The notes under the pieces were generated by a model. That model did not search any database. It was not told the origin of the DNA and saw only the letters and a list, made by a program, of their open reading frames with translations. A stretch of DNA of 14,179 nt from Candidatus Fermentibacterales bacterium (GTDB taxonomy: Bacteria; Fermentibacterota; Fermentibacteria; Fermentibacterales; JAFGKQ01): the NCBI GenBank assembly GCA_016928495.1, contig JAFGKQ010000337.1, positions 1-14,179 of the forward strand, in the 5' to 3' direction. Of this stretch, positions 4,762-5,755 are shown piece after piece; position 1 is the first letter of the stretch; each line of letters starts with the position of its first letter. The position numbers and the translations under genes are program-made.

Positions 4762-4763
4762 GG

Positions 4764-4792
4764 GGCAGGGCAGCAACCCTACGTGCCCTGTC
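4764..4792 (+). promoter_or_regulatory. Stem-loop just after secE
   Basis: GGCAGGGCA (4764-4772) can pair with TGCCCTGTC (4784-4792), giving 9 pairs with one G-U and an 11-base loop. It starts two bases after the secE stop and has no T-run, so an RNA processing, stability or attenuation element is more likely than a terminator. Confidence 0.4.
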
Positions 4793-4811
4793 GCAGGGCT
4801 CCTGCCTTCAG

Positions 4812-4826
4812 GCCCCGGCCCGGGGC
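4812..4826 (+). promoter_or_regulatory. Short GC hairpin in the nusG leader
   Basis: GCCCC (4812-4816) pairs with GGGGC (4822-4826) around a 5-base loop. It is the second stem in the 139-base secE-nusG gap. Short GC stems are common by chance here, so support is weak. Confidence 0.25.
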
Positions 4827-4900
4827 GACAGTGCCGGTCTGTCCCGTCGGCGCAGCCCTCGGGAGAACCTGCCGGAGAGAGCCGGAAAGAAGAAGATCGT

Positions 4901-5755
4901 ATGACCCTGTTGGACGAGCCAGCCAGAACCAGCCCCGAGAAGGACCCGGCAGAGGAGACCTCTCCGGGAGAGACCCCGGAGAAGAAGCCGACCCGCCGTA
5001 AGGCCGTAGCCCGGAAGTCCGGGGCGGCGGTGAAGAAGGTCCGGAAGCCCGCTGCCTCCGGGACCGGAACCGGGAAGACCTCGTCGGCGAAGATGCCCAA
5101 GAAGAAGGCCCAACGGGCAAAGCCGGCGGGGGAAAAGAGCGCGCCTCCTCAGGCCGATGAGCCGAAGCCCGGAACGGGGGCCGACGAGGATGCACCCCCG
5201 GAGGAGGAAGGCCGCCCCGACGAGGGCAGGGGGAAATGGTACGTGGTGCACTCCTTCAGCGGCCACGAGCAGAAGGTCAAGCGATACCTGGAGGCGCAGG
5301 TGTCGGAGAGGTTTCCCGAGAGGGTCATCAAGGTGCTCATCCCCACGGAGCAGATAACGAGCAGCCGTGGTGGCAGGAAGACCGTAAGGGAGAAGAAGCT
5401 TTATCCGGGCTACGTGTTTGCCCGTCTCGACCTCTGCGAGGAGATGGTCATGGAGATCCGGGCGATGTCCAGCGTGAGCGGGTTTCCGCCCATGAACAAG
5501 GGGTTTCCGCAGCCGCTGACCAAGCAGGAGGTCGAGCGGATCCTCGGCCAGGCCGAAGGCCGCGAGGCTCCGAAATCGATCAGGGTGCCCTTCGGGGTCG
5601 GCCAGACCGTCAGAGTGATATCGGGCCCCTTCAACAACTTCTCGGGAGTCGTCGAGTCCATCAACCCCGAGAGGGGCAGGGTCCGAGTGATATTCACGAT
5701 CTTCGGGAGAAAGGCACCGGTCGAGCTGGACTTCTCCCAGGTGAGGATAAACTAG
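4901..5755 (+). CDS. nusG: Transcription elongation/antitermination factor NusG with a long charged N-terminal extension
   Basis: NusG binds RNA polymerase, modulates pausing and Rho termination, and can link polymerase to the ribosome through S10. The conserved part starts at [12 protein letters not shown] (112 on). The NGN domain (about 112-222) includes [21 protein letters not shown] and VSGFP. The KOW domain (about 231-284) includes [19 protein letters not shown]. The protein has 284 residues, against about 180 for E. coli NusG, because residues 1-111 form a low-complexity, presumably disordered tail: acidic (1-29), strongly basic (30-80, 17 Lys/Arg and one Glu), then acidic (81-110, 10 Asp/Glu). 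Codon use in the tail is as G/C-rich at third positions as in the core, so it looks truly coding. ATG 4901 has only a weak purine tract (AAGAAGA) upstream; an in-frame ATG at 5093 would still leave about 47 extra residues. Confidence 0.97.

Follow-up and report, generated by a model that had tools for sequence, protein, structure and literature searches.

An enlarged N-terminal tail with a basic block between acidic stretches on an ordinary NusG of Candidatus Fermentibacterota

The nusG locus and its product

The window (the whole 14,179-nt stretch of DNA that was analysed) comes from a MAG that is placed in Candidatus Fermentibacterota via its named relatives. It carries four tRNA genes, tuf, tRNA-Trp, secE, nusG, rplK, rplA, rplJ, rplL, and rpoB, and it ends in the start of a probable rpoC; rplK, rplA, rplJ, and rpoC were named by operon order and translation. 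With secE upstream of nusG and an apparent rplK ORF downstream, the locus has the secE-nusG-rplK operon order. The nusG ORF spans 4901-5755 on the plus strand, from an ATG at 4901 to a stop codon at 5755, and encodes 284 aa; it is the single match in the genome, which is about 81% complete. Its product matches TIGR00922 over residues 113-281 with 158.7 bits (cut-off, 135.7), and both PF02357 and PF00467 score above their cut-offs. By profile match, single copy, and operon order, it is a housekeeping bacterial NusG. The family profiles begin to match only at residue 112 or 113, in front of which lies an N-terminal tail of 111 residues; the ORF and the profile matches agree with the tail length, coordinates, and core position given in an earlier note on this DNA. 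The features are as follows.

4762..4900, plus strand: secE-nusG spacer, 139 nt
4901..5755, plus strand: nusG, 284 aa, stop codon within the coordinates; TIGR00922 and Pfam NusG and KOW matches
4901..4987, plus strand: tail part 1, residues 1-29, acidic (8 D/E, 4 K/R)
4988..5140, plus strand: tail part 2, residues 30-80, basic block (17 K/R, 1 E)
5093..5095, plus strand: internal in-frame ATG (Met65), last start codon before the core and possible alternative start
5141..5233, plus strand: tail part 3, residues 81-111, acidic (10 D/E, 3 K/R), adjoining the core
5234..5752, plus strand: NusG core, NGN and KOW domains (Pfam; AlphaFold2 pLDDT mostly 87-97)

Charge layout and predicted structure of the tail

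A recount over the three segments returned the same charges as the earlier one, and the tail as a whole has 19 acidic against 24 basic residues. The central block is rich in Lys, Ala, Pro, Ser, Gly, and Thr, with a calculated pI of 12, and the most positive stretches of the tail reach +11 per 25 residues and +17 per 51 residues. In 20,000 shuffles of the same 111 residues, the acidic-basic-acidic statistic had a p of ~0.0001, the best 51-residue positive stretch a p of ~0.0001, and the best 25-residue stretch a p of ~0.007, values that serve only as a guide because we chose the segregation statistic with the pattern already in view.

In an AlphaFold2 model run on a 34-row alignment, the NGN and KOW domains are confident (block pLDDT mostly 87-97, with 66 in the linker), and residues 1-111 are without secondary structure at a pLDDT of 48-56; i.e., the tail is predicted to be disordered. 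The KOW domain retains its IFGR..PVELDF segment, and on its face for S10 or Rho, F268, G269, P273, and E275 do not vary in any of the 34 rows. Since both folds and this segment are kept, polymerase should still be bridged to S10 or Rho in the usual way. No Pfam domain matches residues 1-111 at E values up to 1. A histone H1-like or Hc1-type family for the tail was rejected, as it has no Pfam match and the likeness is one of composition only; an AT-hook tail was likewise rejected, the RGRP core motif being absent from residues 1-111.

Relatives within Candidatus Fermentibacterota and the origin of the tail

A tree of NusG cores places the window protein inside the Candidatus Fermentibacterota clade with a support of 100/100, its exact place within that clade being unsettled. 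Among the genomes compared, that of the window is the only one from its family, and the relatives from its order belong to two other families. Their NusG cores are 61-71% identical to that of the window, their tails finish with an acidic or Asn-rich stretch ahead of the core, and many begin with Met-Thr, as does the window tail. However, all those with an intact N-terminus have tails of just 16-36 residues, acidic save for a few that are weakly charged, and the basic block is absent from every one of them. The NusG of one relative (G041; L101, G041:C2:188889-190000) is split over two frames that match 1-62 and 28-172, which reflects either a frameshift or an assembly error. From these comparisons, part 3 of the window tail probably corresponds to the short tail of the relatives, and the simplest history would be an ancestral short tail with one enlargement in the lineage that led to the window.

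The secE-nusG spacer is also longer in the window, at 139 nt; in 17 relatives, it measures 21-40 nt. Its predicted folding is no better than that of shuffles (z of -0.4), with no sign of a structured RNA or leader in the spacer, and a scan with Rfam matched tRNAs alone.

We found no second copy or duplication source of the tail in the genome at the protein level. Matches to it at the DNA level were chance-sized, the best being antisense within an ordinary glycosyltransferase-like gene. A tandem-repeat origin was rejected, as only weak rows of 2 to 2.5 copies and no strong array were seen. Rho is present and ordinary, with no comparable basic insert. A value of +17 per 51 residues is reached by one other gene among the 219 predicted genes of a ~295-kb genome sample that includes the window, and a genome-wide habit of basic tails is not seen in that sample. 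The other gene is a long ORF (L172, G000:C12, 37-2511) with tandem repeats of the KTARRIAGG type.

NusG tails in other lineages

To our knowledge, no transcription factor family other than NusG is conserved throughout life, and we know of little study of the N-terminal tails of its bacterial members. We surveyed 385 genomes, reading out the longest open frames among the matches listed, and added 60 genomes from the phylum of the Streptomyces-like genome G285 together with small family sets; the tail lengths given below rest on guessed starts, and sequences were read for part of the survey. Some lineages commonly have long charged tails, which are almost always acidic. Actinobacterial-type NusG proteins (in G285, G149, and the phylum of G285, the type being assigned from sequence) resemble that of the window in having a charged tail of ~50-220 residues before a normal core. 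Unlike that of the window, their tails are mainly acidic and rich in Glu, Asp, Ala, and Pro, most of them being without a net positive stretch in the tail proper. The window tail has the length (111 residues, with >50 expected) and the disorder (pLDDT 48-56) of this long acidic type, but with +17 over 51 residues it is not net acidic throughout.

The closest parallel in layout is the NusG of G437 (family f255), which has an acidic tail, a Lys-Pro-rich block, KPKPKPKPKKKTATKAK, and then a mildly acidic segment ahead of the core. Its best 25 residues have a net charge of +9 versus +11 in the window, but the block is only ~17 residues long, its 51-residue charge is +4 versus +17, and the tail is acidic overall. 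This block arose independently of that in the window. Among the 11 members of f255 with an intact N-terminus, G437 alone has such a block (it is missing from the other 10), which suggests that blocks of this kind come and go easily. Shorter basic patches adjoin the core behind acidic tails in the f27 class (G065, G212, and G350; KKTRVARARA) and in f256 (G397 and G439; RRGRPRSLEDVRDKKEL), where the best 25 residues have a net charge of +2 to +4; in both groups, they are common to the few members compared. The tails in the f27 class (L088, L089, and L093 in G212, G065, and G350, respectively) are ~115-186 residues long. In f256 (L240 and L242 in G439 and G397, respectively), the long acidic tails end in RRGRPRSLEDVRDKKEL, with an AT-hook-like RGRP that is conserved in both. 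Of the basic blocks found in the survey, that of the window, seen in a single MAG contig, is both the longest and the most strongly basic, and similar acidic-basic layouts appear to have arisen independently in other lineages.

The earlier note had proposed that the acidic-basic-acidic tail is a separate design. It does differ in charge from the acidic tails of its relatives and of actinobacterial-type NusG; however, with smaller counterparts in unrelated genomes, it is unusual rather than unique. A literature search, which covered few subscription papers, turned up no bacterial NusG described as having such a tail. In the same protein superfamily, eukaryotic Spt5 has a disordered, charged extension before its NGN domain (PMC6391919). 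As described there, this N-terminus is acidic, and Spt5, unlike the window protein, has several KOW domains after it and is paired with Spt4; the literature looked at reports no basic block like that of the window on Spt5.

Possible roles of the tail

The tail is present in the sequence, predicted to be disordered, and segregated in charge, as the earlier note had observed, and the interpretation offered there is partly supported. The account that we favour, tentatively and at a little under an even chance, is of a housekeeping NusG whose ancestral acidic tail was enlarged in this lineage and now acts as a flexible basic arm that contacts nucleic acids. On sequence comparison, a short, mostly acidic disordered tail would have grown to 111 residues through the addition of a basic stretch rich in Lys/Arg, Ala, and Pro and flanked by acidic residues. 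The NGN and KOW core would still bridge polymerase to its partners, and the tail would most likely be a flexible arm at the NGN domain, making weak, nonspecific contacts near the elongating polymerase with upstream or non-template DNA or with nascent RNA. The acidic flanks may limit stray binding and prevent the arm from adhering to the complex it belongs to; the binding, its masking, and any benefit are inferred. We count for this arm the intact core, the disorder, the charge segregation, the lack of a start codon after Met65, the short tails without a basic block in the order relatives, the rarity of +17 per 51 residues in the genome sample, the independent parallels, and a Rho without an insert. 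Against it, we count the finding of the block in one MAG contig only, the occurrence of the f255 block in 1 of 11 members, and the weaker codon bias of the tail (0.21 versus 0.50 in the core).

The main rival, which we regard as only slightly less likely, is near-neutral growth: the N-terminus of NusG would tolerate disordered additions, and GC-rich codons (AAG, GCC, CCG, and GAG) would have expanded without a role, leaving the charge blocks as a by-product. This fits the sporadic distribution almost as well. Tail length and sequence differ widely among lineages, the block of G437 is missing from the rest of its family, codon bias is weaker in the tail than in the core, and the growth of the secE-nusG spacer from 21-40 to 139 nt suggests that the region expanded in general. 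On the other hand, the frame stays open and coding-like with a high third-position GC, a charge segregation this strong is unlikely from a random order of the same residues, and no recognisable repeat array or genomic source of the block was found. A more novel reading, in which the disordered acidic-basic-acidic arm is a self-masked tether or condensation element for nucleic acids at the polymerase that has evolved several times on bacterial NusG, appears unlikely.

Apart from the ATG at 4901, the frame offers a TTG at 4910, a GTG at 5030 (V44), and an ATG at 5093 (M65), and it has no ATG, GTG, or TTG between Met65 and the core; thus, at least residues 65-111 must be translated. A working protein that begins at Met65, with a 47-residue tail, KKKAQRAK as its sole basic patch, and the upstream part as an untranslated leader, is quite unlikely in our judgement; it would retain only part of the basic block. 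In its favour are the ATG itself, a modest ribosome-binding sequence before 4901 (GGAAAGAAGAAG), and a low synonymous codon bias around 4880-4970. Against it, the frame is open from 4901 with a coding-like third-position GC: 0.83 over residues 1-29, 0.86 over residues 30-80, and 0.83 for the frame, with neighbouring genes at 0.82-0.87. The nusG frame has a positive synonymous codon bias and the two other plus-strand frames a negative one; one minus-strand frame scores similarly but contains a stop. The Met-Thr start and the GGAAAGA preceding it resemble the GAAAGGCACA-ATG-ACT of the relatives, and the spacer with a start at 4901 is nearer to their length than with a start at 5093. The coding-like composition and these likenesses favour the ATG at 4901 as the probable start.

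Finally, the block could tether NusG to the ribosome or rRNA and boost transcription-translation coupling beyond the KOW-S10 contact, which is in keeping with the general property of basic disordered tails to bind RNA and with 6ztj, a structure matched in our search that we take to be a complex with NusG between polymerase and ribosome, but which we consider very improbable, as the tail is joined to the polymerase-binding NGN domain and not to the S10-reaching KOW domain.

The window NusG is thus ordinary but for an unusual variant of a charged, disordered tail, and it represents no new system; by sequence, the design of the tail appears rare and, in this genome, extreme, yet with parallels elsewhere. 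A single case from one MAG is modest on its own. The survey points to long charged NusG tails as widespread and to basic patches as arising repeatedly within acidic ones, and natural variants are now at hand for asking if a disordered NusG arm alters pausing, termination, or coupling.

A separate observation concerns family f102 (L113-L119), in which 7 of 7 NusG proteins have strongly acidic tails of roughly 75-105 residues; here, a long acidic tail is conserved in proteins that do not belong to the actinobacterial type.
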